Assembly: GCA_030651305.1 (NCBI GenBank)
Contig: JAUSCI010000022.1
Location: 1 to 64,000 of the forward strand
Source: Sulfuritalea sp.
GTDB taxonomy: Bacteria; Pseudomonadota; Gammaproteobacteria; Burkholderiales; Rhodocyclaceae
Reading direction: 5' to 3'
Length of the DNA: 64,000 nt
The stretch's first letter is position 1, and every line of letters starts with the position of its first letter. Made by a program: the position numbers and the translations under genes. The notes beneath the pieces were generated by a model that saw nothing but the letters and a program-made list of their open reading frames with translations, had not been told where the DNA came from and searched no databases. Positions 13,063 through 57,637 of this stretch are shown piece by piece.

Positions 13063-14079
13063 ATGAAAGTCCTCGGCATCGAATCCTCCTGCGACGAAAC
13101 CGGCGTCGCGCTCTTCGACACTGAGCGCGGCCTGCTCGGCCATGCCGTGCATACCCAGGTGGCGATGCATGAAGCCTATGGCGGCGTCGTGCCGGAGCTC
13201 GCCTCGCGCGACCACATCCGCCGCCTTATTCCGTTGCTGGAGCGCGTGCTGGCAGAGGCCGAATGTACGCGCCACGACATCGATGCCGTCGCCTATACGG
13301 CGGGGCCGGGACTGGCGGGCGCCTTGCTGGTCGGCGCCAGCTTTGCCGAATCGCTGGCGCTGGCGCTGGGGATTCCTGCGCTGCCGGTGCATCACCTCGA
13401 AGGCCACGTGCTTTCGCCGCTGCTGGCGGCTGATGCGCCGATGTACCCCTTCATCGCTCTGCTGGTATCCGGCGGGCATACGCAGTTGATGTACGTGACG
13501 CGGGTCGGCGATTACCGGCTCCTCGGCGAGTCGCTCGACGACGCGGCGGGCGAAGCTTTCGACAAGACCGCCAAGCTGCTTGGCCTGGGCTATCCCGGCG
13601 GACCGGCTCTGGCGAAGCTGGCGGAGAGCGGCAAGCCGGGCCGTTACAAGCTGCCGCGGCCAATGATCAACAGCGGCGATTTGTCGTTCAGTTTTTCCGG
13701 CCTGAAGACGGCGGTGCTGACCGCCGCCCGTGCGAAGGAACTGACGGAGGCCGACAAGGCCGACCTCGCCGCCGAGTTTCAGGAGGCGGTGACCGAAGTG
13801 CTGGCGGCCAAGGCGGTGACGGCGTGTCGCCAGCGCCGACTCTCGTCACTGGTGGTGGCGGGCGGTGTCGGTGCCAACCGGCGTCTGCGCCAGCGGCTGG
13901 ATTCGGCCATGGCGAAGATTGGCGGCCGGGTGTTCTATCCCGAACTGGAACTATGCACCGACAACGGCGCGATGATCGCCTTCGCAGGTAGCCAGCGCCT
14001 GCTGCAGGGCGAAGTGCCGCCTTCGACCCAAGGCGCTTTTGTCGTCCGTCCGCGCTGGCCGCTGGATCAGATCGTCTGA
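13063..14079 (+). CDS. tsaD: tRNA N6-adenosine threonylcarbamoyltransferase TsaD
   Basis: A 338-residue TsaD (Kae1/Gcp), which with TsaB and TsaE installs t6A37 in ANN-decoding tRNAs. It starts [18 protein letters not shown], has the metal-binding HHLEGH (110-115; H111 and H115), the SGGHTQ nucleotide loop, and ends with [13 protein letters not shown] and [11 protein letters not shown]. The ATG at 13063 was preferred to the in-frame one three codons upstream because the family starts here. It is divergent from the glycosyltransferase. One copy of the dispersed 23-base motif lies inside the gene at 13820-13844. Confidence 0.98.
13820..13844 (+). repeat. Dispersed motif copy in tsaD
   Basis: Reads GGCGTGTCGCCAGCGCCGAC followed by TCTC, encoding the QRRLS part of TsaD. 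It matches the dispersed consensus (CGCCGT, two variable bases, CGCCAGCGCCGACT) over its whole 3' half. Confidence 0.5.
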
Positions 14080-14101
14080 GCGCGTACCGCGCCAGGCATT
14101 G

Positions 14102-15022
14102 CTAGGCGCTGCTGCGCAGCAGATTGCCGATATGCTGAACGCGAGCGCCCATCGAGCGCAGGAGAGCAATGCCGAATGCCGGTTTCGACTTGATCATCGA
14201 CAGAAAGTCCTGGCGGGCGATCAGGAACCATGCGCTCTCGGTCTCCGCCGTGGCGCTGGCGGAACGACCGGAGCGATCGACCAGGGCCATTTCCCCGAAA
14301 ACTCCGCCCGGTCCGACATGCTCGATGACCAGACCATCGATGGATATTGCGATGCGACCCTGAGTCACGACAAACATGCAGGCACCGACCGCGCCCTTGG
14401 TGACAACATTTGCGCCGGCCTGGGCAACGGTCGGCGACGGATTGCCGAGTTCATGCTGCAACTCGGCCAGCATCTTCCTGTCCAGCGTATTCTTGTGATC
14501 CAGCACCGCGACCGAAGTCTTTTTTGCCGCGGCCAGCCTTGCAACGCTGCGCCGCAAGCGCTGGGCCATGACGCTCATCAGCATCAGGGCGAACTCGGGC
14601 ATTTGTTGCAGTGATTGCAGGAACTGCTTTTCATCTAGCGCCAGCACCCTGCAGTTCTTTCGCGCCGTCGCCGTCGCGCTTCTGGGAATGTCGGCGATGG
14701 CCGCCATTTCGCCGAATGTCTCGCCGGCCAGGACCAGTTCGAGCGGCTTGCCCTTGAGCGTCAGGGCGACGTCGCCTTCGAGCAATAAATAGATGCGGGC
14801 GCCCTTGGAAAAAAATCCACCGGCTTTTTCTTCTTCGACAAAAATCTGTTTGCCGGCCGGGAACTGCTCCTGCGTCCCGGCGATCCGGAAAAACTCAAGG
14901 GCCAGTTTGGGGTCGTAGAGGGACACCGGTTCGCTTTTTCGGCTCGTGTCCGCAGGTGCCGGAGCTGGCGGAGCGGCGGGGGCGGGGGCGGGGGGGGTTC
15001 CTGAAAAGTCCAAATCATCCAT
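14102..15022 (-). CDS. Protein with two cyclic-nucleotide-binding domains
   Basis: A 306-residue soluble protein. After a Pro/Ala-rich linker come two cNMP-binding folds. The first (about 50-160) contains LVLAGETFGEMAAIADIPRS; the second (about 200-300) contains VGPGGVFGEMALVDRSGRSA. Both keep the FGEMA phosphate-binding-cassette core and an Arg/Ser pair. No DNA-binding or kinase domain is attached, so it may be a cNMP-responsive adaptor. I chose the ATG at 15022, with CAGGA upstream, over longer frames. Confidence 0.8.
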   Translation of the reverse strand: MDDLDFSGTPPAPAPAAPPAPAPADTSRKSEPVSLYDPKLALEFFRIAGTQEQFPAGKQIFVEEEKAGGFFSKGARIYLLLEGDVALTLKGKPLELVLAGETFGEMAAIADIPRSATATARKNCRVLALDEKQFLQSLQQMPEFALMLMSVMAQRLRRSVARLAAAKKTSVAVLDHKNTLDRKMLAELQHELGNPSPTVAQAGANVVTKGAVGACMFVVTQGRIAISIDGLVIEHVGPGGVFGEMALVDRSGRSASATAETESAWFLIARQDFLSMIKSKPAFGIALLRSMGARVQHIGNLLRSSA

Positions 15023-15187
15023 GGCAACAATTCCTGGAGCGAGATAGGTGGTGTGCGGTTCGCCGCGAAGAGGATTATAAAAGCCCCGGGCAATCAGGTT
15101 GCTAGCCTGTGCCCCATCCATGCAGGGAGGAATCCAGACTACAATAGTTTCATTCGTTTGTGGCAAACACCTATTTTGGAGCCCTCG

Positions 15188-15625: not shown

Positions 15626-16228
15626 TTATTTCTTGCTGCCGAGGCGGCTTTCGCGGCCGGTGAGCAGCTTGCGGATATTGTTCTTGTGGCGGTAGATCAG
15701 TACCGCGCACATGAGCGCTACCGTCACGGTGATTTCGGTGTTCCCGAGCAGCCACCAGGTCAATACGGGCGCCCCTGCCGCTGCCGTCAGGGCCGCCAGT
15801 GACGAATAGCGCGTAACGGCGACGACAGCCAGCCAAACGCCGGCCGTGATAGCGGCCAATGCGCCGGAAAAACCCAGCAGAACGCCCAGCGCCGTCGCCA
15901 CTCCCTTGCCGCCGCGAAAACCAAGGGTGAAGGGAAATACATGGCCGAGAAAAGCCCCCAGGCCGGCCGCCGCCATCGCCGTCTCGCCAGCGCCGACTCT
16001 TGCGGCGATGAACATTGCGAGCCAGCCCTTGGCCGCGTCGCCGATCAGCGTCAGCAATGCCGCTGCCTTGTGGCCGCTGCGCAACACGTTGGTCGCGCCC
16101 GGATTGCCCGAGCCGAAGCTGCGCGGATCGGCCAGGCGAAAGGCGCGCGAGACGATCACGGCGAAGGGCACGGAGCCGAGCAGATAGCCGAGGACGGCAG
16201 AAACGAGCAGGTTAGTCGCGGATTCCAT
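15626..16228 (-). CDS. plsY: Acyl-phosphate:glycerol-3-phosphate acyltransferase PlsY
   Basis: A 200-residue polytopic membrane enzyme that makes lysophosphatidic acid from acyl phosphate and G3P. All PlsY signatures are present: GSVPFAVIVSR, SGNPGATNVLR, GHVFPFTLGFRGGKGVAT, and the basic C-terminus KNNIRKLLTGRESRL. Divergent from folB, with 33 bases between start codons. A copy of the dispersed motif lies at 15977-16000. Confidence 0.97.
   Translation of the reverse strand: MESATNLLVSAVLGYLLGSVPFAVIVSRAFRLADPRSFGSGNPGATNVLRSGHKAAALLTLIGDAAKGWLAMFIAARVGAGETAMAAAGLGAFLGHVFPFTLGFRGGKGVATALGVLLGFSGALAAITAGVWLAVVAVTRYSSLAALTAAAGAPVLTWWLLGNTEITVTVALMCAVLIYRHKNNIRKLLTGRESRLGSKK
15977..16000 (+). 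repeat. Dispersed motif copy in plsY
   Basis: CGCCGTCTCGCCAGCGCCGA followed by CTCT: a full match to the consensus. On the coding strand of plsY it encodes VGAGETA. Confidence 0.55.
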
Positions 16229-17257: not shown

Positions 17258-18028
17258 ATGAACGATTGCCGGTCCGTCAGCCTGATGCTTGCCTGCCTTG
17301 TCGTTGCGGCTGCCGAGGTTTCCGCGGCGCCGGCTTGTGTGGCCGAGAGCGGAGCACAGCGCGCAGTGCTGCTGGAACTGTATACCTCGGAAGGTTGCGA
17401 CAGTTGTCCGCCCGCGGACCGCAGGCTGTCGCGGCTAAAGAGCCAGCCCGAGCATGCCGGGCGCGTCGTGCCGCTGGCTTTTCATGTCGACTACTGGGAT
17501 CGTCTGGGTTGGGTGGATCGCTACGCCAGTCCGCTGCATACCGGGCGGCAGGTTGCGATGGCCGGCCTCGCCAGGTCACGGCTGGTCTACACGCCGCAGT
17601 TTCTGCGCAACGGCCGCGACTGGCGTGGTGCGGAAAATCCGCTCGACGGTGTGGGCGACGCGCGGCCGGGTGCAAGGATAGTTCTCGAACTCGGCGCGCC
17701 GACCGGGCGCAATCTGGCAATTGGCGGGGAGGTCAGACTTCTTGCGGCGGCGGTGGCGGCCGAAGCCTGGCTCGCGCTGTACGAAAACAATCTCGAGTCG
17801 CAGGTGCGCGCCGGCGAGAATGCCGGCAAAACCTTGCGGCACGATTACGTGGTACGTCGCCTGATCGGGCCGCTGCTGCCGGACCCGACGGGTCGCCTGC
17901 CCTTGCGCCGGCAGATCGCACTCGACGCGGGCTGGAAGCGGGCCGACCTTGGCGTGGTGGTCCTTGTCCAGGACAAGGCCAGCGGCGAAATCCTGCAGGC
18001 CCTGCAGCGTCCCTTCTGTTCGTCCTAA
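17258..18028 (+). CDS. DUF1223 secreted thioredoxin-like protein
   Basis: A 256-residue exported protein with an N-terminal signal peptide (MLACLVVAAAEVSAAPA). The DUF1223 domain follows with LLELYTSEGCDSCPPADR: C47 and C50 form a CxxC redox motif as in thioredoxin-fold proteins. AFHVDYWDRLGWVDRYASP and YTPQFLRNG are further family hallmarks. TGCAGGAG is an excellent ribosome binding site for the ATG at 17258. A periplasmic redox or metal role is likely but unproven. Its stop overlaps xerD tail-to-tail by 4 bases. Confidence 0.9.
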   Translation: MNDCRSVSLMLACLVVAAAEVSAAPACVAESGAQRAVLLELYTSEGCDSCPPADRRLSRLKSQPEHAGRVVPLAFHVDYWDRLGWVDRYASPLHTGRQVAMAGLARSRLVYTPQFLRNGRDWRGAENPLDGVGDARPGARIVLELGAPTGRNLAIGGEVRLLAAAVAAEAWLALYENNLESQVRAGENAGKTLRHDYVVRRLIGPLLPDPTGRLPLRRQIALDAGWKRADLGVVVLVQDKASGEILQALQRPFCSS

Positions 18029-19005
18029 GCGCGCGGATGATGCTGGCGATGCAATTGCTTCAGTCGCTCGCGGGCGACATGGGTATATACCTGCGTCGTT
18101 GAAATGTCGGCGTGACCGAGCAGCAGTTGCACCACGCGCAAGTCGGCGCCGTGGTTCAGCAGGTGCGTGGCGAAGGCATGGCGCAGCACATGCGGCGAAA
18201 TGCGCTCGCCCGGAATGCCTGCCCTCATCGCATATTTCTTGACCAGGGTCCAGAACATTTGCCGCGTCATGCCGCTGCCGCGCGCGGTGACGAAAACCGC
18301 GTCCGATACATGCTGCTTGAGCAACTCATTGCGAGCACCGGCAATGTAGCGCTGCAGCCAGTCGGCGGCGATTTGTCCCAGCGGCACCAGGCGTTCCTTC
18401 GAGCCCTTGCCCATCACGCGTACCACGTTGTCGTTGAGGCTCACCTCGAACAGGCGCACGCCGACCAGTTCCGAGACGCGCAGTCCGGTGGCGTAGAGCA
18501 GTTCGAACATGGCGCGGTCGCGCAAGCCGAGTGGCGTGTCCACATTTGGCGCGCCAAGGAGGTCTTCCACCTGCTTTTCCGAAAGCGTCTTGGGAAAGCG
18601 CGAGATGGTCGGCGGCTTGTCGATGTTGAGCAGCGGATCGGCCTGCAGCCGGCCTTGGTCGAGCAGCCAGCGGTAGCAGCGTCGCAGCGTCGCCATCAGG
18701 CGTCGCTGGCTGGTCGACTTGATGCCGCCGGGACGGGCATTCAGATGCGCCAGATAGCCGTTGATCGCCGTCTCGTCAGCGCCGACTATTGACCTCGAAC
18801 CCGTTCGGCCTGAGCTTGTCGAAGGCCCGTCGTCGTGGAGCACGCTTGGTTCGACAAGCTCACCACGAACGGGAGCCCCGTCCAGCCACTGCGAGAACAA
18901 TGCCAGATCACTGCGGTAGCTCGCCAGCGTGTTCTTCGAGAGCCCGTCAGCGAGCCACAACGCGTCGATGAATTCGTCGATCAGCGCGGCGTCAGATGGC
19001 TGCAT
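18025..19005 (-). CDS. xerD: Tyrosine recombinase XerD with inserted repeat
   Basis: A 326-residue XerD that resolves chromosome dimers at dif with XerC. The catalytic set is complete: R176 (GLRVSEL), K200 (GKGSKER), H272 and R275 (HVLRH), H298 (LLGHAD), and nucleophile Y307. The N-terminal core-binding domain carries about 28 extra residues (about 46-73, RGELVEPSVLHDD to SGRTGSRS), encoded by a palindromic intergenic-type repeat at 18800-18873. The repeat keeps the frame, and XerD is normally near 298 residues. The start overlaps ogt by 14 bases, so the two are coupled. Confidence 0.95.
   Translation of the reverse strand: MQPSDAALIDEFIDALWLADGLSKNTLASYRSDLALFSQWLDGAPVRGELVEPSVLHDDGPSTSSGRTGSRSIVGADETAINGYLAHLNARPGGIKSTSQRRLMATLRRCYRWLLDQGRLQADPLLNIDKPPTISRFPKTLSEKQVEDLLGAPNVDTPLGLRDRAMFELLYATGLRVSELVGVRLFEVSLNDNVVRVMGKGSKERLVPLGQIAADWLQRYIAGARNELLKQHVSDAVFVTARGSGMTRQMFWTLVKKYAMRAGIPGERISPHVLRHAFATHLLNHGADLRVVQLLLGHADISTTQVYTHVARERLKQLHRQHHPRA
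18766..18788 (+). repeat. Dispersed motif copy in xerD
   Basis: CGCCGTCTCGTCAGCGCCGA followed by CTA: one change from the consensus. It encodes VGADETA on the xerD strand and lies 12 bases from the palindromic repeat. Confidence 0.5.
18800..18873. repeat. REP-like palindromic element inside xerD
   Basis: Arms CCGTTCGGCCTGAGCTTGTC and GACAAGCTCACCACGAACGG face each other; GAGCTTGTCGA (18812-18822) and TCGACAAGCTC (18851-18861) are perfect complements. From memory, this pair is a widespread intergenic repeat in beta- and gammaproteobacteria. Here it lies in frame within a coding sequence and supplies a readable peptide. Confidence 0.8.
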
Positions 19006-19471
19006 TTTCGTGCTGCAGGAGCCACTTCTTGATGTCGAGCAGAAAGCCGCCGCGCTGCCGGGCGAAACCGCCCAGTCCCCGATTCGCCGCGACCACGCGA
19101 TGACAGGGCACCACGATCGGATAGGGGTTGGCGCCGCAGGCATTGCCCACCGCGCGCGATCCGCTGTGAATGGCCGTTGCGACTTCGCCGTAGCTCCGCG
19201 TCTGGCCGGCCGGAATCGCGGCGATCTGCTGCCAGACGCGACGCTGGAAATGCGTGCCGGCGGGCGCCAGCGGCAGGCCGAACTCGAAGCGCGGATCGCG
19301 CAGCCAGGCGCGCAGTTGACGCACCGCTTCCTTGCCCAGCGGAGTCTTCGGCACGACTTCGGTCTGTGGTTCCAGATAGGCGATTGCGGTGACCTCGTCA
19401 TCGTTGCAGCAGATGCCGATGCTGAAACCTGGCGCGGACAGGACGGCGGCGTAGGGCTTCATGGCGGGCAC
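18992..19471 (-). CDS. ogt: Methylated-DNA--protein-cysteine methyltransferase
   Basis: A 159-residue suicide repair protein that removes methyl groups from O6-methylguanine. The acceptor motif IVVPCHRVVAANRGLGGF contains the receptor C123. The HTH part is TRSYGEVATAI, with AVGNACGANP before it. It has no Ada-type N-terminal domain, so the symbol ogt is used generically. It lies directly upstream of xerD with overlapping ends. Confidence 0.95.
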   Translation of the reverse strand: MPAMKPYAAVLSAPGFSIGICCNDDEVTAIAYLEPQTEVVPKTPLGKEAVRQLRAWLRDPRFEFGLPLAPAGTHFQRRVWQQIAAIPAGQTRSYGEVATAIHSGSRAVGNACGANPYPIVVPCHRVVAANRGLGGFARQRGGFLLDIKKWLLQHENAAI

Positions 19472-22314: not shown

Positions 22315-24420
<2,106 letters not shown>

Positions 24421-29858: not shown

Positions 29859-29957
29859 GTGCGGCTGTTCCGAATTGAAGAGGGCGGGATGCGGCGACAA
29901 TGATACCGCCGCCGCAAGCATGCTATCGTGGTGTCATCGATTGAACGGGAGAATGCC

Positions 29958-31370: not shown

Positions 31371-31393
31371 AAGTCGGCGCTGGCGGTACGGCG
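31369..31393 (-). repeat. Dispersed motif copy at the end of the DUF4139 gene
   Basis: On the minus strand CGCCGTACCGCCAGCGCCGA followed by CTTTC: a full match, touching the stop codon. It marks the boundary between core genes and the accessory patch. Confidence 0.55.
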
Positions 31394-32161: not shown

Positions 32162-32221
32162 AGAGTTACGACAGAAGAGCGTAACGTCTGAGGCGACTGG
32201 CCGACAGAGAGCGAAGTGCAT

Positions 32222-32483
32222 AAGTAACCTGAAAGCGTAACTTGCATGCGGTCCGATTGACCGAAAACCTAGGCCGCAATCTTTCGCGTGGAATCACGAG
32301 TGTCCTTGACTATTTTGCGCTTCGTTGACGAGGTCCTCAAGGGCTTGCCCGAAGGACGAGAAGGGGCATCCCGCAGCCGTTTGGGTGGTTCGACGCCTGC
32401 TACAAGAACGATCTAGTGGGCGCATCGTTCGGTCACTATGAGGTTTAATGTTTGAAAATTCTTGCTGAGATCTGTTGAAGTGA
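32222..32483. other. Intergenic stretch, possible gene remnant
   Basis: No convincing gene. On the minus strand, a 47-codon open stretch without a start ends at a TAG near 32274 and encodes a very basic tail (KPLRTSSTKRKIVKDTRDST). It could be the C-terminal remnant of a lost gene. No terminator or repeat was seen. Confidence 0.25.
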
Positions 32484-33672: not shown

Positions 33673-33679
33673 GTGCAAC

Positions 33680-33865: not shown

Positions 33866-33925
33866 TCTGATTCCTCTCCGGCGAGTGCAAGAACGTGAGT
33901 GAGAGTCACATCGTCGCGGTTTCGA

Positions 33926-34168: not shown

Positions 34169-34204
34169 GCGCTGGCCTCCATTTTTTTTGGCACTAACGA
34201 CGCT

Positions 34205-36858: not shown

Positions 36859-38115
36859 TTACCCGCGAACCTCTCCATTTCCCAGCACGATCCACTTCTG
36901 CGAGGTGAGGCCTTCCAGGCCGACCGGGCCGCGGGCGTGGAACTTGTCGGTGGAAATGCCGATCTCGGCGCCGAGGCCGTATTCGAAGCCATCGGCGAAG
37001 CGGGGCGAGGCGTTGACCATCACCGAGGCCGAATCCACCTCGCGCAGGAAGCGCATGGCGTTGCTGTAGTTCTCGGTGACGATGGCGTCGGTATGGGCTG
37101 ACGAATACTTGTTGATGTGGGCGATGGCTTCGCCGACATCGGCGACGATCTTCACCGAAATTATGGCGGCGAGATATTCGGCGTACCAGTCCTGTTCCGT
37201 CGCGGCAATGGCCTGCGGCACCAGCTTTCGAGTTTCCTCGCAGCCGCGGATTTCGACGCCGCGGGCGCTGAGCATGTTGCCAAGAGTCGGCGCCAGCGAT
37301 ACGGCGACGGCGCGTGCGATCAGCAGCGACTCGGCGGTGTTGCAGGTTCCCAGGCGCTGGGTCTTGGCGTTCTCGACGATGTTCAGCGCCTTTGTCGCAT
37401 CGGCGGTGTCATCGACATAGACGTGGCAGTTGCCGTCGAGATGCTTGATCACCGGCACCTTCGCCTCTTTCGAAACGCGCTCGATCAGGCCCTTGCCGCC
37501 GCGCGGCACGATCACGTCGACATACTCGGGCATGGCGACCAGATGGCCGACCGCCGCGCGATCGGTGGTCTCGATCACCTGTACCGCCTTCTCCGGCAGG
37601 CCTGCCGCCACCAGGCCGGCGCGGACGCAGGCGGCGATGGCCTGGTTGCAGCGCAGTGCTTCCCTGCCGCCGCGCAGGATGGCGGCATTGCCGGACTTGA
37701 GACACAGGGCGGCGGCGTCGGCGGTGACGTTCGGCCGCGCTTCGTAGATGATGCCGACCACGCCGAGCGGGACGCGCATCTTGCCGACCTGGATGCCGGA
37801 CGGGCGGCGCTTCATATCGCTGATCTCGCCGATCGGATCGGGCAGGGCGGCGACCTGTTCCAGGCCCAGCGCCATGGCTTCGACGCTCTTGTCGGTCAGC
37901 GTCAGGCGGTCGATCATCGCCGCGTCGAGGCCGTTCTTGCGCGCTTCGGCGACGTCTGCTGCGTTAGCCGCAAGAAGTTCGCCGCGGTGCTCGCGGATCG
38001 CGGCCGCCATGGCCAGCAGCGCCGTGTTCTTGGCCGCCGTCGAGGCCCGCGCCGTGGCGCGCGATGCCTCGCGGGCATTGCGGCCGACTTGCTGCATGTA
38101 GTTCTTTACATCCAT
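36859..38115 (-). CDS. proA: Gamma-glutamyl phosphate reductase ProA
   Basis: A 418-residue enzyme of proline synthesis that reduces glutamyl-5-phosphate to the semialdehyde with NADPH. It is full length for the family. Motifs: [29 protein letters not shown], the catalytic cysteine in [13 protein letters not shown], and HTDAIVTEN and [12 protein letters not shown] near the end. It is the last gene of holA-proA on the minus strand, preceded by a palindromic repeat. The IS1182 element lies just beyond its stop and probably does not harm it. Confidence 0.98.
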
Positions 38116-39714: not shown

Positions 39715-42297
39715 TCAAACCACGATGTTGACCAGACGACCGGGAACGACGATGACTTTTCTTGCCGGCTTGCCTTCCATGAATTTCTGTGCGGCATCCG
39801 ACCCCACCGCAATGGCCTCGATCGCCGTCCTGTCGGCGCCGACTTTGACCCGGATGCTGCCGCGATGCTTGCCATTGACCTGCAGCACCAGCTCCTCCTC
39901 GTCCTGCACCAGGGCGGCAGGCAGCGGCTCGGGCCACGGTGCGTGGAGGATGTCCTCGCCAAAACCCAGTTCCCGCCAGAGTTGGTGGCAGATGTGAGGT
40001 GCGATCGGGGAGAGCAGGCGAAGCAGGATTGAAAGGCCTTCCTCGGTAACCTCGTTCCTGCCGCCCGCGAACCTGTCCAGTGCGTTCAGGATCTTCATCG
40101 TCGCAGAAGCGACGGTGTTGAACTGCAGCTTGCCCATGTCGTAATTGGCTTGCTTGAGCACGGTATGGATTTCAAACCGCGTCGCCTTGGCCAGCGTATC
40201 GCCCATTGCCGGGCCCGGATTGTCGAACCTCGCGCAATAGTTCCAGACCCGGCGCAAAAACCGGTAGGCGCCCTCGACGCCCGAGTCCGACCATTCCAGC
40301 GTCTGTTCCGGCGGCGAGGCGAACATCATGAAGAAGCGCGCGGTGTCGGCGCCGAACTCATCGATGATCGCTTGCGGATCGACGCCGTTGCGCTTGGACT
40401 TGGACATGGTGCCGACGCCGCCGTAATCGACCGTCTGGCCGTCGGCCTTCGATGTGGCGCCGACGACGTGGCCGCCCTCGTCGCGCTTGAGATCGACCTC
40501 TTCCGGGGCGAAATACTCGATGCCGCCCTTGTCGGTGCGGCGCGAGAAAATGTGGTTGAGCACCATGCCTTGCGTCAGCTGGTTGGCGAAGGGCTCGTCG
40601 TACTTGACGAGTCCCAGATCGCGCCTCACCTTGGTCCAGAAACGCGAATAGAGCAGGTGCAGGATGGCATGCTCGATGCCGCCGATGTTCTGGTCCACCG
40701 GCATCCAGTAGTTGGTGCCGGTATCGACCATTGCCGAATTCGTCGCGCGCGTGGCGGCATCGACGCCGTAGCGCGCGTAGTACCAGGACGAATCGACGAA
40801 GGTGTCCATGGTGTCGGTTTCGCGCCTGGCCGGCTTGCCGCATTGCGGGCAGGCGCAGTCGACGAAATCGGCGCGCTTGGCCAGCGGATTGCCGGAGCCG
40901 TCGGGCACGCAATCCTCGGGCAATTTCACCGGCAACTCGGCTTCGGGCACCGGCACCGTGCCGCAAGCGTCGCAATGGATCAGCGGAATCGGACAGCCCC
41001 AGTAGCGCTGGCGCGACACGCCCCAGTCGCGCAGGCGGTACTGCACCTGGGTGGCGCCGAGATCCTTGGCGCTGAGGTCGGCGGCGATGGCGGTGGTGGC
41101 GGCTTCGAGGCCGAGGCCGTCGTACTTGCCGGAATTCACGCAACGGCCGCGCTGCTTGTCGGCATACCATTCCTGCCAGCCGGCCAGCGAGAATGTCTCG
41201 CCTTCGACGGCGATCACCTGTTTGATTTCCAGGCCGTATTTCTTGGCGAACTCGAAGTCGCGTTCGTCATGGGCCGGCACGGCCATCACGGCGCCTTCAC
41301 CGTAGCTCATCAGCACGTAGTTGCCGACCCAGACTTCGACTTTGTCGCCGGTCAGCGGATGCTCGACGAAAATACCGGTCGGCATACCCTTCTTTTCCAT
41401 GGTCGCCATGTCGGCTTCCATGACCGAGCCGTGCTTGCACTCATCGATGAAGGTGGCGAGTGCGGGATTGTTTTTTGCGGCATGGCTCGCCAGCGGATGC
41501 TCGGCGGCGACGGCGCAGAAGGTCACGCCCATGATGGTGTCGGCGCGGGTGGTGAACACCCACAGCTTTTCCTGCTTGCCGTCCAGCTCGTAGGGAAAGG
41601 CGAAGCGCACGCCGATGCTCTTGCCGATCCAGTTGGCCTGCATGGTCTTGACCCGCTCCGGCCAGCCCGGCAGCGTGTCGAGCGCCGACAGCAGCTCGTC
41701 GGCATATTTCGTGATGGCCAGGTAGTAGCCGGGAATCTCGCGCTTCTCGACTACCGCGCCGGTGCGCCAGCCGCGGCCTGCGATCACCTGTTCGGAGGCG
41801 AGCACGGTCTGGTCCACCGGATCCCAGTTCACGACCTGGGTCTTCTTGTAGGCAATGCCTTTCTCCAGCATGCGCAGGAACAGCCACTGGTTCCACTTGT
41901 AATACTCGGGTGCGCAGGTCGCCAGTTCGCGCTCCCAGTCGAGGGCAAAGCCCAGCGACTGGAGCTGCTTCTTCATGGCGGCGATGTTGTCCCAGGTCCA
42001 CTTCGCCGGCGGCACCTTGTTCTGCATCGCGGCGTTCTCGGCGGGCAGGCCGAAGGCGTCCCAACCCATCGGTTGCAGGACATTGCAGCCCTTCATGCGG
42101 TGGGTGCGGGCGAGCACATCGCCGATGGTATAGTTCCGCACATGTCCCATGTGCAGTTTGCCCGACGGATAGGGGAACATCGACAGGCAGTAGTATTTCG
42201 GCCGGTTCTTGTCCCCAACGGCACGGAAAGTCTGCTGGGTATTCCAGTGGGTCTGTGCGGCCCGCTCGATTTCGTTCGGTAGGTATTTTTCCTGCAT
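39715..42297 (-). CDS. leuS: Leucyl-tRNA synthetase LeuS
   Basis: An 860-residue class I synthetase charging tRNALeu. It begins [20 protein letters not shown], has the HIGH-type [15 protein letters not shown], the CP1 editing domain, a zinc-like [15 protein letters not shown], the Rossmann catalytic part with [11 protein letters not shown] (KMSKS signature), and the C-terminal [15 protein letters not shown]. The ATG at 42297 is the family start. A dispersed-motif copy falls at 39823-39846 in the last domain. It begins the leuS-lptE-holA-proA unit. Confidence 0.99.
39823..39846 (+). repeat. Dispersed motif copy in leuS
   Basis: CGCCGTCCTGTCGGCGCCGA followed by CTTT. It deviates in the middle (GTCGG for GCCAG) but keeps CGCCGT and GCGCCGACT; the leuS strand reads VGADRTA. 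Confidence 0.4.
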
Positions 42298-42368
42298 GGC
42301 CGGGCGCGTGTTTTGAGTACTGACAAAGGCGGGAATTATACCTGCCGACACTGATCGAAAGGATTCGC

Positions 42369-43848: not shown

Positions 43849-46023
43849 ATGAATCCCCTGCTCGCCCCCCTCAACGCGCCGCAACTGGCGGCGGTCACGC
43901 TGCCGCCGGCGCATGCCCTGATCCTCGCCGGCGCCGGTTCGGGCAAGACTCGGGTGCTGACGACGCGCATCGCCTGGCTGATTTCCACCGGACAGGTGTC
44001 GCCGCCGGGAGTGCTCGCCGTGACCTTCACCAACAAGGCGGCCAAGGAAATGCAGACGCGGCTGGCCGGCATGCTGCCGATCAACGTCAGGGGCATGTGG
44101 ATCGGCACCTTTCACGGTTTGTGCAACCGCCTGCTGCGCGCCCACTATCGCGATGCCGGCCTGCCGCAACTGTTCCAGATTCTCGACTCGGCCGATCAGC
44201 AGGCCTCGGTCAAGCGCCTGCTGAAATCGCTGAATGTCGATGACGAGAAGTTCCCGCCGCGCGAGCTGTGCCATTTCATCAACGCGCAGAAGGAACAGGG
44301 ATTGCGCGCCGCAGCGGTGGAAGCCTGGGACGACTGGGCACGCAAACGCATCGGGCTCTACGAAGCCTACGAAGCCCAGTGCCAGCGCGAAGGCGTGGTC
44401 GATTTCGCCGAACTCCTGTTGCGCTCGTATGAACTGCTGGAACGCAACGAACCGCTGCGCCGGCATTATCAGGAGCGTTTCCGCCACATCCTCGTCGATG
44501 AATTCCAGGACACGAACAAACTTCAATATCGCTGGTTGAAGCTCTTGGCCGGCGGCGGTGCCCATCTGTTCTGCGTCGGCGATGATGACCAGAGCATCTA
44601 CGCCTTTCGCGGCGCGGACGTTGGCAACATGAGCGACTTCGAGCGCGAGTTCAAAGTCGAAAACCTGATCCGCCTCGAACAGAACTACCGTTCCCACGGC
44701 AACATCCTCGATGCGGCCAACGCCATCATCAAGAACAACCCGACGCGCCTCGGCAAGAACCTGTGGACCGAGGCCGGCAGCGGTGAGCCGATCCGTATCT
44801 ACGAGTCCTATTCCGACGGCGACGAAGCGCGCTGGATCGTCGAGGAGGTCCGGGCATTGACGCGCGAGGGCCATGTGCGCGCCGAGATCGCCTTGCTGTA
44901 TCGCAGCAACGCCCAGTCGCGCGCGCTGGAGCATGCGCTGTTCAACGCCGGCCTGCCCTACCGTGTGTATGGCGGCCTGCGCTTCTTCGAGCGCGCCGAG
45001 ATCAAGCATGCGCTGGCCTATCTGCGCCTGATCGCCAACGCTGATGACGACACCGCCTTCGCCCGCGTGGTGAATTTCCCGACGCGCGGTATCGGCGCGC
45101 GCAGCCTCGAAAGCTTGCAGGATGCGGCGAAGGCGGCCAACAGCAGCCTCCATGCGGCGATCCCGCAAGTGGCCGGTGCCGGCGGCGCCAAGCTGGCCGC
45201 TTTCGCCCAACTGATCGTCATGCTGCGCGAGGCCGTACAGCTGCCGCTGCCGGAACTGGTCGAACACGTCGTCGAACTGTCCGGCCTGCGCGCTCATTAC
45301 CTGAACGAGAAGGAAGGCCAGGACCGGCTCGCCAACCTCGACGAGCTGATCAATGCCGCCGCCAGCTTTGTCGCCGAGGAAGGCGAGCCGAATCAGGATG
45401 GCGAAATCACCGGCGAATTCGGCAACGATTTGTCATCGTTCCTTGCCCACGCTTCGCTGGAGGCCGGCGAACATCAGGCCGGCGAAGGCGACGACGCGCT
45501 GCAACTGATGACCGTGCATTCGGCCAAGGGCCTGGAGTTCAACGTGGTTTTCATCAGCGGTCTGGAGGACGGCCTGTTTCCCCACGAGAACTCGCTGACC
45601 GAGGACAAAGGTCTCGAAGAAGAGCGGCGCCTGATGTATGTCGCCGTCACCCGCGCCCGGCAGCGGCTTTACCTGAGCTTCGCGCAGACCCGCATGCTGC
45701 ACGGGCAGACGCGCTACAACCTGCCTTCGCGATTTGTCGACGAGGTTCCTGATGAACTGGTGAAGTGGCTGACGCCGCGTGCCGGCACGGGTGGCTTCGC
45801 CGTCCCGTCGGCACCGACTTTCAGCTGCGTATCACGTCGCAGCGAGTCATCCCGCAGCGACAGCGGCTTTCACATCGGCCAGACGGTGTTGCATCCCAAG
45901 TTCGGCCTCGGCGTTATCGTCAATGCCGAAGGTCGCGGTACCGATGCCCGCGTGCAGGTCAATTTCGGCGCCGCCGGCATGAAATGGCTGGCGCTGGCCG
46001 TTGCCAAACTGGAGGCTGCATGA
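43849..46023 (+). CDS. uvrD: UvrD/Rep family DNA helicase
   Basis: A 724-residue SF1A 3'-5' helicase. Motifs in order: Q-like LNAPQLAAV, Walker A AGAGSGKT (27-34), AVTFTNKAAKEM, Walker B VDEFQDTN, GDDDQSIYAFRGAD, LEQNYRSHGNIL, VHSAKGLEF and VAVTRARQRLYLS. The C-terminus contains the UvrD Tudor-like part HPKFGLGVIVNAEGRG. Its role is mismatch and excision repair and replication restart. Its stop overlaps the next start (ATGA), so the hydrolase is coupled. A dispersed-motif copy lies at 45798-45822 in the linker. Confidence 0.97.
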   Translation: MNPLLAPLNAPQLAAVTLPPAHALILAGAGSGKTRVLTTRIAWLISTGQVSPPGVLAVTFTNKAAKEMQTRLAGMLPINVRGMWIGTFHGLCNRLLRAHYRDAGLPQLFQILDSADQQASVKRLLKSLNVDDEKFPPRELCHFINAQKEQGLRAAAVEAWDDWARKRIGLYEAYEAQCQREGVVDFAELLLRSYELLERNEPLRRHYQERFRHILVDEFQDTNKLQYRWLKLLAGGGAHLFCVGDDDQSIYAFRGADVGNMSDFEREFKVENLIRLEQNYRSHGNILDAANAIIKNNPTRLGKNLWTEAGSGEPIRIYESYSDGDEARWIVEEVRALTREGHVRAEIALLYRSNAQSRALEHALFNAGLPYRVYGGLRFFERAEIKHALAYLRLIANADDDTAFARVVNFPTRGIGARSLESLQDAAKAANSSLHAAIPQVAGAGGAKLAAFAQLIVMLREAVQLPLPELVEHVVELSGLRAHYLNEKEGQDRLANLDELINAAASFVAEEGEPNQDGEITGEFGNDLSSFLAHASLEAGEHQAGEGDDALQLMTVHSAKGLEFNVVFISGLEDGLFPHENSLTEDKGLEEERRLMYVAVTRARQRLYLSFAQTRMLHGQTRYNLPSRFVDEVPDELVKWLTPRAGTGGFAVPSAPTFSCVSRRSESSRSDSGFHIGQTVLHPKFGLGVIVNAEGRGTDARVQVNFGAAGMKWLALAVAKLEAA
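45798..45822 (+). repeat. Dispersed motif copy in uvrD
   Basis: CGCCGTCCCGTCGGCACCGA followed by CTTTC. A diverged copy: the two outer blocks are kept, the centre differs. It lies in the poorly conserved linker near the C-terminus. Confidence 0.35.
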
Positions 46024-46814
46024 ACACCGTTCGCGTCAATGACATCGACGTTCGCTACCAGGTTGAAGGCCGCGGTCCCTGGATAGCGCTTTCGCATTCG
46101 CTGAGTTGCGACCTGACGATGTGGGATGAACTCGCCGTGGCGCTGGCGCCGACTTTCACGGTGCTGCGCTATGACACGCGCGGCCACGGCGGCACGGGTT
46201 TGGCAAGCTCGGCACCCGACGGCGCCTACAGTTTCGCGCAACTCACCGCCGACATCACCGGCCTGCTCGATGCGCTGAACATCGAGCGCACGCACTTCGT
46301 CGGCCTGTCGCTGGGCGGCATGATCGGCCAGCATCTGGCGCTGAGCGCACCGCAGCGCTTGAACAAGCTGGTGATCGCCAGTTCCACCAGCCGGATTCCG
46401 CCGCAGGCGTCGCCCCTGTGGGACGAGCGCATCCGCCTGGTGCGCGCGCAGGGGTGTGCGGCGATGGTCGAGGGCACTCTGGGACGCTGGTTTACGCCGG
46501 GCTTCCGCGCCGCGCGACCGGAGCTGATGCAGCGCATCGGCAGCCTGATCGCGGCCACGCCGGTGGCCGGCTACGTCGGTTGCGCCGAGGCGATCCGCCA
46601 TCTCGACATCACGCCGCAACTTGCCGCCATCCGCACGCCGACCCTGGTCGTCGCCGGAGAGGATGATCCCGGTACGCCGCCGGCAATGTCGGCCGTCATC
46701 GCGGCGGCAATTCCCGGTGCGCGACTGGAAACCATAGCGTCAGCGTCGCATCTTTCCTGTCTCGAGCAGCCGGAAGCATTCCGGCGGCTGCTGGCCGGCT
46801 TTCTCAGCGGCTAG
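46020..46814 (+). CDS. Alpha/beta hydrolase, 3-oxoadipate enol-lactonase-like
   Basis: A 264-residue alpha/beta hydrolase. The oxyanion region is IALSHSLSCDLTMWDELAVA, the nucleophile elbow GLSLGGMIGQ, the Asp in VVAGEDDPGTPP and the His in ASASHLSCLEQPEAF. The pattern is closest to PcaD (enol-lactonase), but other pcaD-pathway genes are absent, so the substrate is open. It starts in the ATGA overlap with uvrD. Its last 11 bases overlap the HD-GYP-like gene on the other strand. Confidence 0.82.
   Translation: MNTVRVNDIDVRYQVEGRGPWIALSHSLSCDLTMWDELAVALAPTFTVLRYDTRGHGGTGLASSAPDGAYSFAQLTADITGLLDALNIERTHFVGLSLGGMIGQHLALSAPQRLNKLVIASSTSRIPPQASPLWDERIRLVRAQGCAAMVEGTLGRWFTPGFRAARPELMQRIGSLIAATPVAGYVGCAEAIRHLDITPQLAAIRTPTLVVAGEDDPGTPPAMSAVIAAAIPGARLETIASASHLSCLEQPEAFRRLLAGFLSG
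46133..46157 (+). repeat. Dispersed motif copy in the hydrolase gene
   Basis: CGCCGTGGCGCTGGCGCCGA followed by CTTTC, only 311 bases after the uvrD copy. It encodes AVALAPTF of the hydrolase. Confidence 0.4.
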
Positions 46815-50083: not shown

Positions 50084-51339
50084 GAACTTCTGAGGCTTGG
50101 CGCGCAGCGCGACTGCTGCCCGCGCTCGGCTTCGTCTTCACCGGGCTGGCCGGCCGCGCGCTGATCGACAAGCTGCTGGCGCTGCGCGGCGGTGCCGAAC
50201 TCGTCGCCCACTGGGCGCAACTGAACAGCCTGGCCGAGATGGTCGCCGGCGTCACGCTGCTGGGCGTCGGCATCGGGCTCACCGGCCGCGTTGCCGGCGT
50301 CGCGCCGTACCACCAGCGCCGACTTCTGGGTGACGCCCTGCGTCTCGGCCTGATGCTCTCTGCCGCGTGCCTCGCCGTACTCGCGCTGCTGGCCGCGTCC
50401 GGCCTGCTCCCGCTGCTGTTGCCGCCGCACCTGGCGTCGCTGGTGCTGCCGGCGCTCGCCGTCGGCTGGATCGGCGTCGCACCCGGACTGCTCGTCGCCT
50501 GGCTGCTCGGCTGCGCACGGCCCGGCGGCGCCATCGCGGTCGTCGCCGTGCAGTTGAGCGTGCCGCTGCTGGCCTTGTGGCTGGCGCCACCGGGCGCAGA
50601 ACTGTCGGCCCTGCTCGGCGGCCAGGCGCTGTTCGGCACCGTGGCGACGTTGTTGCTGGTGATCGACGCAGCAGCGGCGAAGGCGCCGCTTCCGGCGGGG
50701 CACGGCCTGCGGCCTTTCGTCGCCGCAGGCATCGCCATCGGCATCCTGAGTCCGGCCGCGCTGGCCATTGCGCGGCTGGAGATCGCGGCCTCGGCATCGT
50801 GGGAAACGGTGGGTGCGGTGCAGGCGCTGTGGCGCACCAGCGAATGGATCACGGCCGTCGCCGCCGGCCTGCTCAATGCCTATTTCCTGCCCCGGCTGGC
50901 GGCGGCGAAGGCGGCGCCTGCCTTTGCGGCGGAACTGCGAGCCGCAGCCAGACACGTGGCGGGGCCGGCGCTGCTGGCGCTTTGCCTGCTGTGGCTGCTG
51001 TTGCCGCAGGCGCTGGCACTGCTCTACCGCGAGGGCCTGCCGGTGGCGCGGCTCGATGCCTTGCCCTTCTTCGCCGGCGATGCCTTGCGCATGCTGTCGT
51101 GGATATTCCTGTTCGGCCTGTTCGCCCGTGGCGCGGGATGGGCGGTGACCGCCGGCGAATTTCTGTCCCTGCCGCTGTTTGCCGCGCTGCTGTTGCTGCT
51201 GCCGACGCCGCTCTCGCTGCCGGCAATCGGGGTGGCGTGGGCGCTGGCCTATGCGGCGTATGCAGCGTTCAATTATTGGGCGCTGCGGCGGAGTGGGTTG
51301 TCACCATCAGTCCGGATTCTCCGCCAGCGCTCGCCATGA
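50080..51339 (+). CDS. Multi-spanning membrane protein, flippase-like
   Basis: About 419 residues, dominated by hydrophobic helices (about 12). Segments such as LLPALGFVFTGLAGRALIDK, EWITAVAAGLLNAYFLPRLA and FFAGDALRMLSWIFLFGLFA recall Wzx/MOP-type oligosaccharide flippases, but the similarity is general. No ATG, GTG or TTG lies at the apparent beginning; a CTG at 50080, overlapping the stop of the aminotransferase, is the best in-frame candidate, and the true start is uncertain. Its 3' end overlaps the DUF4143 gene by 33 bases. A dispersed-motif copy lies at 50303. Confidence 0.65.
   Translation: MRTSEAWRAARLLPALGFVFTGLAGRALIDKLLALRGGAELVAHWAQLNSLAEMVAGVTLLGVGIGLTGRVAGVAPYHQRRLLGDALRLGLMLSAACLAVLALLAASGLLPLLLPPHLASLVLPALAVGWIGVAPGLLVAWLLGCARPGGAIAVVAVQLSVPLLALWLAPPGAELSALLGGQALFGTVATLLLVIDAAAAKAPLPAGHGLRPFVAAGIAIGILSPAALAIARLEIAASASWETVGAVQALWRTSEWITAVAAGLLNAYFLPRLAAAKAAPAFAAELRAAARHVAGPALLALCLLWLLLPQALALLYREGLPVARLDALPFFAGDALRMLSWIFLFGLFARGAGWAVTAGEFLSLPLFAALLLLLPTPLSLPAIGVAWALAYAAYAAFNYWALRRSGLSPSVRILRQRSP
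50303..50326 (+). repeat. Dispersed motif copy in the flippase-like gene
   Basis: CGCCGTACCACCAGCGCCGA followed by CTTC: one change from the consensus. It encodes HQRRL in the same frame as the tsaD copy. Confidence 0.5.
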
Positions 51340-52979: not shown

Positions 52980-53161
52980 CGTGCCGATGCGGGTGCCTTC
53001 GTCTGCGCTGCGGGCAGTTCCGAGCCTGACAATCCGAACGACAATGGCTATCTCCTCGTCATGACGGCCAGTATTGAAAATGACTGACCTGAGCGGGATT
53101 TTACGCAGGTCTGCTTGAGCGGATATTGGGCTGGGTTAAAGGCGCTTTGGCAGCTTGTATT

Positions 53162-53279
53162 CGCCGTGTCGCCAGCGCCGACTCCTGGGTTTATGACTTT
53201 GTGCCCAGGGTCGCGCCGGGGCGAGTCCCGGCGCGGTCATCGAGAAGCCGGACCAAGAGTCGGCGCTGGCGATACGGCG
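53162..53279. repeat. 118-bp palindromic element made of two motif copies
   Basis: CGCCGTGTCGCCAGCGCCGA followed by CTC at 53162-53184 is repeated in inverted orientation at 53257-53279 (22 of 23 bases pair). The centre contains two further hairpins: CTGGG/CCCAG and GCGCCGGG (53213-53220)/CCCGGCGC (53227-53234). It fills the gap before parA and is the only place where two dispersed-motif copies face each other. It could act as terminator or as a mobile palindromic unit. Confidence 0.75.
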
Positions 53280-53281
53280 CT

Positions 53282-54088
53282 TTAAGCGCGCTTCTTCGCC
53301 GCCGCCTTGGCGCGAAGCTTTCGCGCCTTTTCCAGTTCATCGAACAGCGCGCCGAATTCCAGTGTCACCTTGTGGCTGCGGTCGAGATGGATCATCGGCT
53401 TCGCCTGCTGATGCGATTCCTTGATGCGCACCGAGGACGACAGGAAGGACGCCAGTACTGGCAGGCCTTCCTCGCGCAACTCGCTGATGATCTGCTGTGG
53501 CAGGCTGGCGCGGGCCTGGAACTGGTTGATGACGATGCCCTCGACTTCGAGGCCGGCATTGTGGTCGGCGCGGATTTCATTGACGTTGTCCATCAGCGTG
53601 TAGAGCGCGCGGCGGGCGAATTCGTCGCAGTCGAAAGGGATCAGGCAGGCATCGGCGGCGATCAGCGCGGAGCGGGTGTAGAAGTGCAGCGCCGGCGGCG
53701 TGTCGATCCAGATTTCGTCGTAGCCTTCGAGGGCGTCGAGGGCTTCGCGCAGCTTGTAGATCTTGTAGCGCGATTCGAGCTTGGCCTGCAGTTCTTCGAG
53801 TGCCGGGCCGGCGGGCAGGATGGACAGGTTTTCAAACGGGGTGGCGGTGATGAATTCCTCGGTCGGTAGCGGACGTAGCTTGAAGCTCAGCATCTGGTCG
53901 AAGAACTCGTTGGCCGTGAGTTCGAGGTCGCGCGCCGCGGCGCCGAGCAGGTACTGCGTTGAATTGGCCTGCGGATCGAGATCGATCACCAGCGTGCGGG
54001 CGCCGCGCGCGGCGGCAATGGCGGCGAGATTGCAGGTGATGGTGCTCTTGCCGACACCGCCCTTCTGGTTGAAAACGACGCGTTTCAT
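53282..54088 (-). CDS. parA: ParA-family partition ATPase
   Basis: A 268-residue deviant-Walker ATPase. FNQKGGVGKSTITCNLAAI (6-24) is the ParA P-loop with the signature lysine, followed by LVIDLDPQANST and WIDTPPALHFYT. The C-terminus is basic and helical (KARKLRAKAAAKKRA). It usually positions DNA or protein cargo along the nucleoid. No parB or parS-like site is visible next to it, so it is an orphan. Divergent from the two-component genes at 54163. Confidence 0.9.
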   Translation of the reverse strand: MKRVVFNQKGGVGKSTITCNLAAIAAARGARTLVIDLDPQANSTQYLLGAAARDLELTANEFFDQMLSFKLRPLPTEEFITATPFENLSILPAGPALEELQAKLESRYKIYKLREALDALEGYDEIWIDTPPALHFYTRSALIAADACLIPFDCDEFARRALYTLMDNVNEIRADHNAGLEVEGIVINQFQARASLPQQIISELREEGLPVLASFLSSSVRIKESHQQAKPMIHLDRSHKVTLEFGALFDELEKARKLRAKAAAKKRA

Positions 54089-56212: not shown

Positions 56213-56244
56213 CCTATCGCCTCCTGCGGGTGTGCGCCCGCCGC

Positions 56245-56262
56245 CGAAAGCGAATCGAAAGG
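56245..56262 (+). promoter_or_regulatory. Shared 18-base upstream box, copy 1
   Basis: CGAAAGCGAATCGAAAGG, identical to the sequence at 60357. It holds CGAA units at 6-base steps, as in repeats bound by OmpR-type regulators, and lies 89 bases ahead of the lyase small-subunit ATG. After ten bases both copies continue with a similar T-rich sequence (TCTTAAAT here). Confidence 0.65.
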
Positions 56263-56350
56263 CGCTTGCTCTTAAATCTCCTTGGCCCGACCGGCCGCCC
56301 TGGACTGCGACCCGGTGCGGCGCGAGCTTCGCCAACCAAGGAGATGGGAA

Positions 56351-57637
56351 ATGCAAATTACCGGCATGTTGTACGGCGCTCGCCTGCTGCAATTCGTCGG
56401 CTTCCCCGCCAGCGAGGTGCTCGGTCCCGCGGCCAGCGAAGACGAGATCAAGGCCCTGATCGACCGCCACGGCCAGATTTTCATCAAGCCGGTGTTCAAG
56501 GGCGGCGTCGGCAAGAAGGGCAAGGCCGGCCTGCTCGGGCGCGCCAGGGATCTGAAGACGGCGCTTGCCGAAAAGGAACGCCTGTACTTCGTCGAGCACC
56601 GCGTCGGCCACACCGTGGCCAAGGCCAACGGCGTCAGCTTCGAAGGCGGCGTGCCGGCGGGGCACGAGGTGTATTTCTCGATCACCGATTCGACCCGCTT
56701 CCGCGCGCCGACCATGACGCTCACGCATCACGGCGGCATGGACATTGAAGAACTGGACAAGACCCAGATTGCGCAGGTGCCCTTCGATCCGCTGACCGGC
56801 CTCAAGGCCTTCGTCGTCGCCAATGCGCTGACCGCGCTGGGCGCGCCGCGGCAGATCATCTCGCCCCTGGTGCAGCACCTGCCCAAGTTGTGGGAGCTGT
56901 ACCACGACTACGGCATGACCACCCTGGAACTCAACCCGATCCGCATGCGCGAGGACAAGAATGGTCGCATGACGCCGGTGGCCTGCGACTTCAAGTGCGG
57001 CTTCGACCGCGATGATCCGCGCTGGCGGCGCCTGAACCTGCCGGCTAGCCTGTTCGCCGTCGACTACTCCGACTTCGAGCAGGAGATCAACCAGTTGCGC
57101 ACCTACCAGGGCCAGAGCGACGTCTACGTGATCAACGCCGGCGGCACCATCCTGGCGCCGACTTTCGGCGGCGGCGCCAACTCGCTGGTCACCGAGATGC
57201 TCGGCGATGACGCGATCATCTCGTCGGACTTCGGCGGCAATCCGCCCTACGAGAAGATGAAGGAAGTGGCGCGAATCTGCTTCAAGCACTGGATCAAGCA
57301 AAGCAACGTGCTGTTCATCATCGGCGGCAAGTCGAACAACACCGACATCTTCGAGACCTTCCGCGCCATGGCCGATGCGCTGCGCGAGCATTTCAGCCGC
57401 CACGGACCGACGCCGCTCTACGTGGTGATCGGTCGCGGCGGGCCGAACCTGGTGCGCGGCTTCGGTGCAATCCGCGACACGCTCGATGCGTTGGGCCTGC
57501 CCTACCGCTTCTTCGGCTTCGACTCGGACATGAGCGAGGTCGTGCTGCATGCCAAACAGGTCGATACCTGGATGAAGAGCGGCGGCCGCGAGCAGGTCGC
57601 GGCCCGGCTCGGTATTGCTGCTCGTCAGGAGGCATGA
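56351..57637 (+). CDS. ATP-citrate lyase-like small subunit (ATP-grasp)
   Basis: A 428-residue ATP-grasp protein related to the AclB/SucC type subunit of ATP-citrate lyase and acyl-CoA synthetases. It begins MQITGMLYGARLLQFVGFPA, has the nucleotide-binding loop QIFIKPVFKGGVGKKGKAG (42-60), ELNPIRMREDKNGR (metal-ligand Glu and Asn), and a second Rossmann-like half with VINAGGTILAPTFGGGANSL and FIIGGKSNNTDIFET that matches the citrate-binding half. It lies one base before the large-subunit ATG and both are surely one operon. GATGGGAA precedes the ATG. The substrate may be citrate or a related acid; only the fold is certain. Confidence 0.8.
   Translation: MQITGMLYGARLLQFVGFPASEVLGPAASEDEIKALIDRHGQIFIKPVFKGGVGKKGKAGLLGRARDLKTALAEKERLYFVEHRVGHTVAKANGVSFEGGVPAGHEVYFSITDSTRFRAPTMTLTHHGGMDIEELDKTQIAQVPFDPLTGLKAFVVANALTALGAPRQIISPLVQHLPKLWELYHDYGMTTLELNPIRMREDKNGRMTPVACDFKCGFDRDDPRWRRLNLPASLFAVDYSDFEQEINQLRTYQGQSDVYVINAGGTILAPTFGGGANSLVTEMLGDDAIISSDFGGNPPYEKMKEVARICFKHWIKQSNVLFIIGGKSNNTDIFETFRAMADALREHFSRHGPTPLYVVIGRGGPNLVRGFGAIRDTLDALGLPYRFFGFDSDMSEVVLHAKQVDTWMKSGGREQVAARLGIAARQEA
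57145..57165 (+). repeat. Possible weak dispersed motif copy in the small-subunit gene
   Basis: ACCATCCTGGCGCCGACTTT followed by C. Only the 3' half (GCGCCGACTTTC) matches, so this may be chance. Confidence 0.2.

Follow-up and report, generated by a model that had tools for sequence, protein, structure and literature searches.

The window analysed here, a stretch of 64,000 nucleotides (positions 1 to 64,000, forward strand, of contig JAUSCI010000022.1 in the Sulfuritalea sp. assembly GCA_030651305.1), encodes tsaD, plsY, leuS and a proA-like gene among others, and is dotted with copies of a motif of 22-25 bp, including a variable gap. Scanning with the pattern CGCCGTNNCGCCAGCGCCGACT, which has 20 fixed positions, at a threshold of at most three mismatches yielded 13 matches, against 0.02 expected from 100 dinucleotide shuffles. 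The copies lie in, across or beside open reading frames (ORFs) as follows:

13820..13841, plus strand: one mismatch; inside tsaD (13054-14079, plus; Pfam TsaD and orthologue alignment)
15977..15998, plus strand: exact; antisense inside plsY (15626-16228, minus; Pfam)
18766..18787, plus strand: one mismatch; antisense inside a tyrosine-recombinase (XerD-like) ORF (18025-19401, minus; Pfam)
22320..22341, minus strand: exact; 3' end of a TRAP DctM gene (22315-24420, minus; Pfam)
24148..24169, plus strand: one mismatch; antisense inside the same DctM ORF (22315-24420, minus)
31372..31393, minus strand: exact; directly past the stop of a DUF4139 ORF (29928-31370, plus)
37285..37306, minus strand: two mismatches, CTGG form; inside the proA-like gene (36859-38115, minus; Pfam Aldedh and orthologue alignment)
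39823..39844, plus strand: three mismatches; antisense inside leuS (39715-42351, minus)
45798..45819, plus strand: three mismatches; 3' part of a UvrD-like helicase gene (43849-46023, plus)
46133..46154, plus strand: two mismatches, CTGG form; alpha/beta hydrolase gene (46020-46814, plus)
50303..50324, plus strand: one mismatch; predicted gene without a Pfam match (50239-51339, plus)
53162..53183, plus strand: exact; intergenic, first arm of an inverted pair
53258..53279, minus strand: exact; intergenic, second arm, two bases from the stop end of a ParA-like gene (53282-54088, minus)
53150..53291, no strand assigned: stretch with the inverted pair 53162/53258, predicted to form an RNA hairpin of -93.7 kcal/mol for its 142 folded bases, a value without a shuffled control

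Our home-made gene caller gave 85% coding sequence and overlooked one or more genes of the window, among them the XerD-like ORF at 18025-19401 (minus), which was supplied by a Pfam search. In some copies CTGG replaces the mid-motif CCAG (37285 and 46133 in the window, and proA of several genomes), which is possibly a tolerated variant.

An earlier note on this DNA had reported a dispersed motif at 13 places, and the motif is real: 12 of these match at up to three mismatches. The nine plus-strand starts (13820, 15977, 18766, 24148, 39823, 45798, 46133, 50303 and 53162) were exact, and the three minus-strand ones lay within 1-3 bases of the matches at 22320, 31372 and 53258. The list had overlooked the minus-strand copy at 37285 in the proA-like gene, and the weak copy it placed at 57145 did not survive, as the best match in 57101-57200 has seven mismatches at the 20 positions. 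The lack of copies it had remarked on in the first 13 kb holds for the first 13.8 kb, where there are only five-mismatch matches and none at three or fewer; with one site per 5-6 kb, a gap of this size is unremarkable.

The motif is abundant throughout the genome to which the window belongs (G000; 3,896,442 bases in 82 contigs): the whole assembly holds 574 copies at up to two mismatches, 320 on one strand and 254 on the other, and no match to the reversed pattern at that threshold. We further examined the complete chromosome of another carrier (G002), of which 800 kb were sampled evenly. Here the matches are bimodally distributed across mismatch classes (66, 50, 28, 9, 15 and 84 with zero to five mismatches, respectively), and the low-mismatch copies form a discrete class set off from the background. 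The copies with up to three mismatches give the consensus R-T-CGCCGT-VY-CGCCAGCGCCGACT-YTY, with an information content of about 34 bits summed over the listed positions, which is in part a product of hit selection. De novo counting of 12-mers in the same sample returned CCAGCGCCGACT as the top word, with 89 occurrences against 1.7 expected.

Could the motif be a mere by-product of codon use or of protein sequence? Copies within genes do favour two of the six frames (44, 26, 13, 12, 3 and 1 of 99 in-gene sites in the G002 sample), and the use of several reading frames claimed earlier is confirmed. However, in 735,711 coding bases (the G002 sample and the window) there are 99 in-gene sites at up to two mismatches, as opposed to a mean of 4.25 and a maximum of eight in 20 synonymous-codon shuffles; thus, the motif passes the count against codon-shuffled sequence that the earlier note had proposed. 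Moreover, a third of the sites in the G002 sample (52/153) are intergenic, and amino acids are altered to fit the motif, as detailed below. We consider this explanation refuted, and the earlier claim that DNA rather than protein is being kept is confirmed both by the shuffles and by these amino acid changes.

The placement of the 153 sites in the G002 sample (99 in genes, 52 intergenic and two at gene ends) is uneven, with 1.45 sites per 10 kb in genes and 3.4, 4.2 and 12.7 in the spacers of divergent, tandem and convergent gene pairs, respectively (8, 27 and 14 spacer sites). Between convergent genes we found two inverted pairs, 27 and 28 bp apart, the only tight pairs among the 153 sites; both fold as long hairpins (-58.9 and -55.3 kcal/mol, without a shuffled control) followed by a pyrimidine tail. 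The window pair 53162/53258, adjoining the parA-like gene, is looser than these. Such enrichment in permissive spacers, together with inverted pairs forming terminator-like hairpins, is a feature of the DNA uptake sequences (DUS) and of the uptake signal sequences (USS). The density of sites also rises with the guanine-plus-cytosine (GC) content, from 0.33 per 10 kb at GC below 0.56 (one site in 15 bins) to 2.55 at GC of 0.64 or more; GC is here a mere proxy for recent acquisition, and high GC in any case favours a motif that is itself GC-rich. In the window, the stretch 32000-36000 has low GC (0.52) and no motif copy; it comprises most of the region upstream of a transposase ORF along with the start of that ORF, and is perhaps a recent insertion:

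35173-36636, plus strand: DDE transposase ORF, its start falling in the low-GC stretch 32000-36000

Both strands are used evenly. The GC skew of G002 turns negative near 1.9 Mb, and with the coordinate halves of the chromosome taken as approximate replichores, plus and minus copies number 43/39 in the first half and 40/31 in the second, that is, without replichore strand bias. This bears on the possibility that the motif is a chromosome-organising or DNA-processing site, akin to the FtsK-orienting polar sequences (KOPS), Chi, matS or the sites of nucleoid proteins, maintained by selection for some local role at hundreds of positions. A genome-wide presence on both strands, conservation at orthologous places (see below) and the density between convergent genes would fit such a site. 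Nevertheless, a polar site of the KOPS or Chi type, one of three readings offered in the earlier note, is disfavoured by the balance of the strands in both halves and by the length of the motif, since 22-25 bp far exceeds that of a KOPS or Chi site. Absence from most genomes sampled in the family, worn copies in certain lineages and a copy number that varies 16-fold within the genus would likewise be odd for a housekeeping function; hence, we regard this explanation as unlikely.

We then considered how individual sites originated by comparing orthologous genes. The tsaD alignment is readable at the site in 28 of 30 genomes (G094 is cut by a stop and G301 by a contig end), and none of the 28 shows an insertion or deletion there. 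Nine genomes are within two mismatches of the motif; G098 has three, or two against its own dialect, and the carriers G021, G025, G061, G177, G132 and G072 have 4 to 11, while the non-carriers read have 9 to 14 of 20. The picture in proA is comparable: insertions and deletions are absent from the site in all 29 of 30 genomes readable across it, six genomes lie within two mismatches, G025 has four, and the remaining 22, some of them carriers, have at least eight, with 9 to 18 of 20 in the non-carriers read. In the protein, an AALLPQL-like sequence becomes VSLAPTL where the motif occurs. The low-copy genome G016 lacks the motif at both sites (six mismatches in tsaD and nine in proA). Hence, in these two genes the site arose by substitution without insertion or deletion, altering amino acids in the process. 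Across species, we found orthologous places for 38 of 351 query sites in three comparisons (4, 15 and 19, possibly overlapping, with none dropped). All 20 fixed positions are identical at 16 of the 38, against 1.24 expected from flank identity, and the motif positions are 0.87-0.96 identical as compared to 0.73-0.83 for the flanks. Because tsaD and proA lack insertions and deletions, and yet the alignment is gapped within the site at 11 of the 38 places, origin in place, established for two genes, is only likely in general.

These comparisons also speak to the third reading of the earlier note, a small mobile or copying repeat of the repetitive extragenic palindromic (REP) or miniature inverted-repeat transposable element (MITE) kind that inserts its own copies. 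The hundreds of near-identical copies, denser between genes, the gapped places and the presence of a different, REP-like repeat in the related genus g5 would be compatible with it. Against outgroups, however, the tsaD and proA sites show no empty-site signature; a single copy, by inspection, is not palindromic as a whole; and sites within 400 bp of each other number eight against 9.4 expected under a Poisson model. For want of insertions or deletions in the two genes and with close neighbours no commoner than chance, we disfavour a spreading repeat, which appears highly improbable. The few copies in low-copy genera are also partly clustered, as in imported DNA: for example, five lie in 41 kb of G135 (C1:1461265-1502264), with further cases in G108 (C50) and G109 (C104), which suggests DNA imported from carriers. 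The repeat in the g5 genome G034, a non-carrier, is TGTGGGAGCGGCGGCC; it is abundant, differs from the motif (stretches L376-L385) and is, we presume, similar to REP elements.

Phyletically, the motif is restricted. It occurs in all 31 sampled genomes of the genus, with 46 copies in G016, 143 in G021, 205 in G025 and 340-732 in the rest. Among 297 genomes of the family, 37 from six genera have at least 100 copies, four have 18-46 and 256 have 14 or fewer; 291 further genomes from elsewhere in the order have five at most. The exact motif was recovered from at least 117 stretches of named genome contigs, and most of the 80 listed bear the titles Rhodocyclaceae, Rhodocyclales or Sulfuritalea, with a few titled Rugosibacter, Sulfurisoma and others (the NCBI taxonomy places Sulfuritalea in the Sterolibacteriaceae). 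The loci nearest to the window genome among those fetched reach an identity of only up to 83%. A FastTree tree of joined TsaD and ProA from 29 genomes, rooted at the midpoint, sets the carriers, along with G076 and G136 (both low in copies), apart from G293 and the non-carriers with a local support of 0.767; several deep nodes have supports of 0.48-0.84. A contig of Sulfuritalea sp. bin.273 (L063) has six exact copies within 5.4 kb (230-5586), every one of them on the plus strand, far above the average density.

Using a relaxed motif pattern, we observed at least three spelling dialects, with the carriers grouped in the tree. For instance, position 1 is C or T in G177 (genus g43), position 10 is A in 76% of the copies of G117 (g88) and position 17 is T in 91% of those of G098 (g69); a TTT tail marks G091, G177, G153 and G098, and more weakly G117, as opposed to the YTY of G002. 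In G098, de novo counting gave the 12-mer AGCGTCGACTTT 21 times against 0.1 expected, in stretches that had been picked for holding matches. Some dialects have a 5' TGCCGT reminiscent of how the meningococcal DUS begins, a likeness that is probably fortuitous. Carriers have clade-specific dialects, as is typical of DUS and USS. At the other extreme, the low-copy genomes G016 and G076 retain few, worn copies, and no substitute motif, such as a hidden replacement dialect, was found in samples of 184 and 200 kb, respectively. A second over-represented 12-mer, CAGGCTTCTTCG or CAGCCTTCTTCG, was noted in the samples of G153 and G016 (CAGCCTTCTTCG in G016); that of G016 and the similar one of G153 may stem from lysine- and alanine-rich coding repeats.

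The motif is further found in viral contigs, in at least 120 stretches, with 131 sites in frames of at least 300 bases among the matches listed. Of nine longer motif-bearing viral frames that we chose, three encode portal proteins (L263, L266 and L271) and one a terminase large subunit (L230). To gauge its spread, related phage loci were fetched by one portal and one terminase and scanned with the relaxed pattern at up to two mismatches. Counting the query phages, copies were seen in 4 of 47 portal loci and 7 of 80 terminase loci (17 sites in 1.54 Mb), and the query phage and two close relatives share a site at the end of the portal gene (L567, L568 and L569). Thus, some phages carry the motif and most related phages do not. 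Those that do presumably belong to carriers, and resident prophages may acquire the motif like other chromosomal DNA. The copies in portal and terminase genes and the shared portal-end position could alternatively point to a mark of self recognised by a nuclease or by defence machinery, under which unmarked DNA is degraded and both host and resident phages gain copies. This is very unlikely in view of how few related loci carry it, and protection would be poor with so many 5 kb pieces of DNA devoid of the mark.

Taken together, the repeat is probably the genomic footprint of an independent lineage of DNA uptake sequences, maintained by biased uptake and recombination. Of the three readings in the earlier note, the uptake-type signal therefore fits best. 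It is favoured because the motif arises in place within core genes despite the amino acid changes this entails, shows no preference for either strand, and is confined to a handful of related genera, in some of which it is fading; uptake-biased recombination has this outcome in Neisseria and Haemophilus. Judged by sequence, the case for a motif that is driven and resembles an uptake sequence is strong, and by analogy we infer that the motif directs uptake, along with its binding to a receptor and subsequent recombination. In such a scenario, a DNA receptor on the cell surface, for which a pilin from a type IV-type pilus is the likeliest candidate, would bind R-T-CGCCGT-VY-CGCCAGCGCCGACT-YTY, and motif-bearing DNA, normally derived from kin, would be preferentially imported and then recombined into the chromosome. 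An allele that by chance came nearer to the motif could spread by biased import, so that the motif would arise in place by substitution. It would settle where proteins and regulation tolerate it and resist decay as long as uptake works, and the dialects would drift as the receptor changes. That many DUS are held to appear by recombination rather than point mutation, according to one account of these sequences (PMC2397512), agrees with such a drive by import.

Several observations weigh against this reading. Most serious is the case of ComEA, the usual periplasmic DNA binder: its model (TIGR00426) scores above cut-off in only 5 of 30 genomes, namely the carriers G117 and G301 and the non-carriers G034, G071 and G087. 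The HHH_3 domain has no match at E <= 0.001 in G000 or in the complete chromosome of G002, and matches in frames shorter than 320 aa are limited to G034, G117, G016 and G036 among 21 genomes. Three explanations offer themselves: a ComEA that has diverged too far for the models to detect, its replacement by another protein, or an error in the uptake reading, whose main weakness this is. ComEC, detected in all 30 genomes, and pilin signatures, detected in all 16 scanned (11 to 26 in eight and 2 to 21 in the other eight), do not discriminate, as both are also found in the tested non-carriers and the ComEC search is also positive in controls, E. coli among them. We rejected one conserved pilin (L349 type) as the receptor, for it occurs in 28 of 30 genomes including non-carriers and does not track the motif. 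G098, despite its sharp dialect, has just two pilin-signature matches, one of which we take to belong to an MSHA-type pilus. The motif density, about one per 5-7 kb, is several-fold below that in Neisseria; self-recognition would not predict the motif in genes of freshly invading phages; and the gapped orthologous places noted above also count against it. Finally, no bias to gene ends of the kind seen in Pasteurellaceae was evident in the G002 sample, with 13 of 99 in-gene sites within 150 bp of the 3' end against 15.8% expected; published accounts describe an intragenic bias to gene termini for the Pasteurellaceae, and it does not define DUS.

With regard to other pilins, a pattern of four cysteines is common to the PilE-like minor pilins of G002, G025, G117 and G153 but missing from the aligned G000 member; their profile matches PilE (4noa) among other pilins, which is uninformative on DNA binding. 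Very short PilA-like pilins of 59-61 aa are present in five carrier genomes (L348, L352, L360, L488 and L493), and we take these to resemble the short pilin of Geobacter. A more specific and tentative proposal, which we think may well be wrong, is that the motif belongs to a third, independently evolved system for uptake of self-DNA that lacks a canonical ComEA, employs an unrecognised receptor, perhaps of an MSHA-type pilus, and has genus-level dialects with repeated losses under way.

In the literature searched, which excluded preprints and included few subscription papers, we found no report of a DNA uptake sequence in Rhodocyclaceae or Sulfuritalea, no report linking natural transformation with Sulfuritalea, and neither strand of the 12-base motif core in print. 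The sources consulted name uptake sequences for two families, Neisseriaceae and Pasteurellaceae. Another such lineage, equipped with a motif and dialects of its own and showing partial losses next to sister genera of non-carriers, would offer an independent-origin test of selfish molecular drive versus selected sexual isolation. If correct, our proposal predicts kin-biased gene exchange in environmental bacteria, and the motif could be used as a tag for transforming carrier bacteria.

Among known systems, Chi and KOPS are likewise over-represented, oriented oligomers, differing in their replichore strand bias. REP and similar extragenic repeats share the short, dispersed form and the greater density between genes, whereas the present motif lies mostly inside genes (99/153), is not palindromic as a single copy and leaves no insertion signature at tsaD or proA. 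Closer is the USS of Pasteurellaceae, described as having a strong core with weaker flanking repeats, an origin by mutation rather than copying and two clade-specific forms (PMC1626085), and with ComN as its predicted receptor (PMC12616744); however, its sequence is unrelated to our GC-rich motif and its host group is different. The DUS of Neisseriaceae, read by the minor pilin ComP, differs in its length of 10-12 bp, as opposed to 22-25 bp with a variable gap, and in its defined receptor, that of our motif being putative. It also differs in the CTG (+6 to +8) and A (+10), reported for every DUS dialect (PMC3630211) and missing from our motif, and in the 943-5918 copies given there for DUS genomes, compared with about 200-730 in most carriers. 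Nevertheless, the two are alike in their very many copies, in dialects that follow phylogeny and in inverted pairs linked to terminators, as described for DUS (PMC3630211), and in a permissive placement; DUS are further described as exactly conserved in permissive core DNA and absent from recent acquisitions (PMC2397512).

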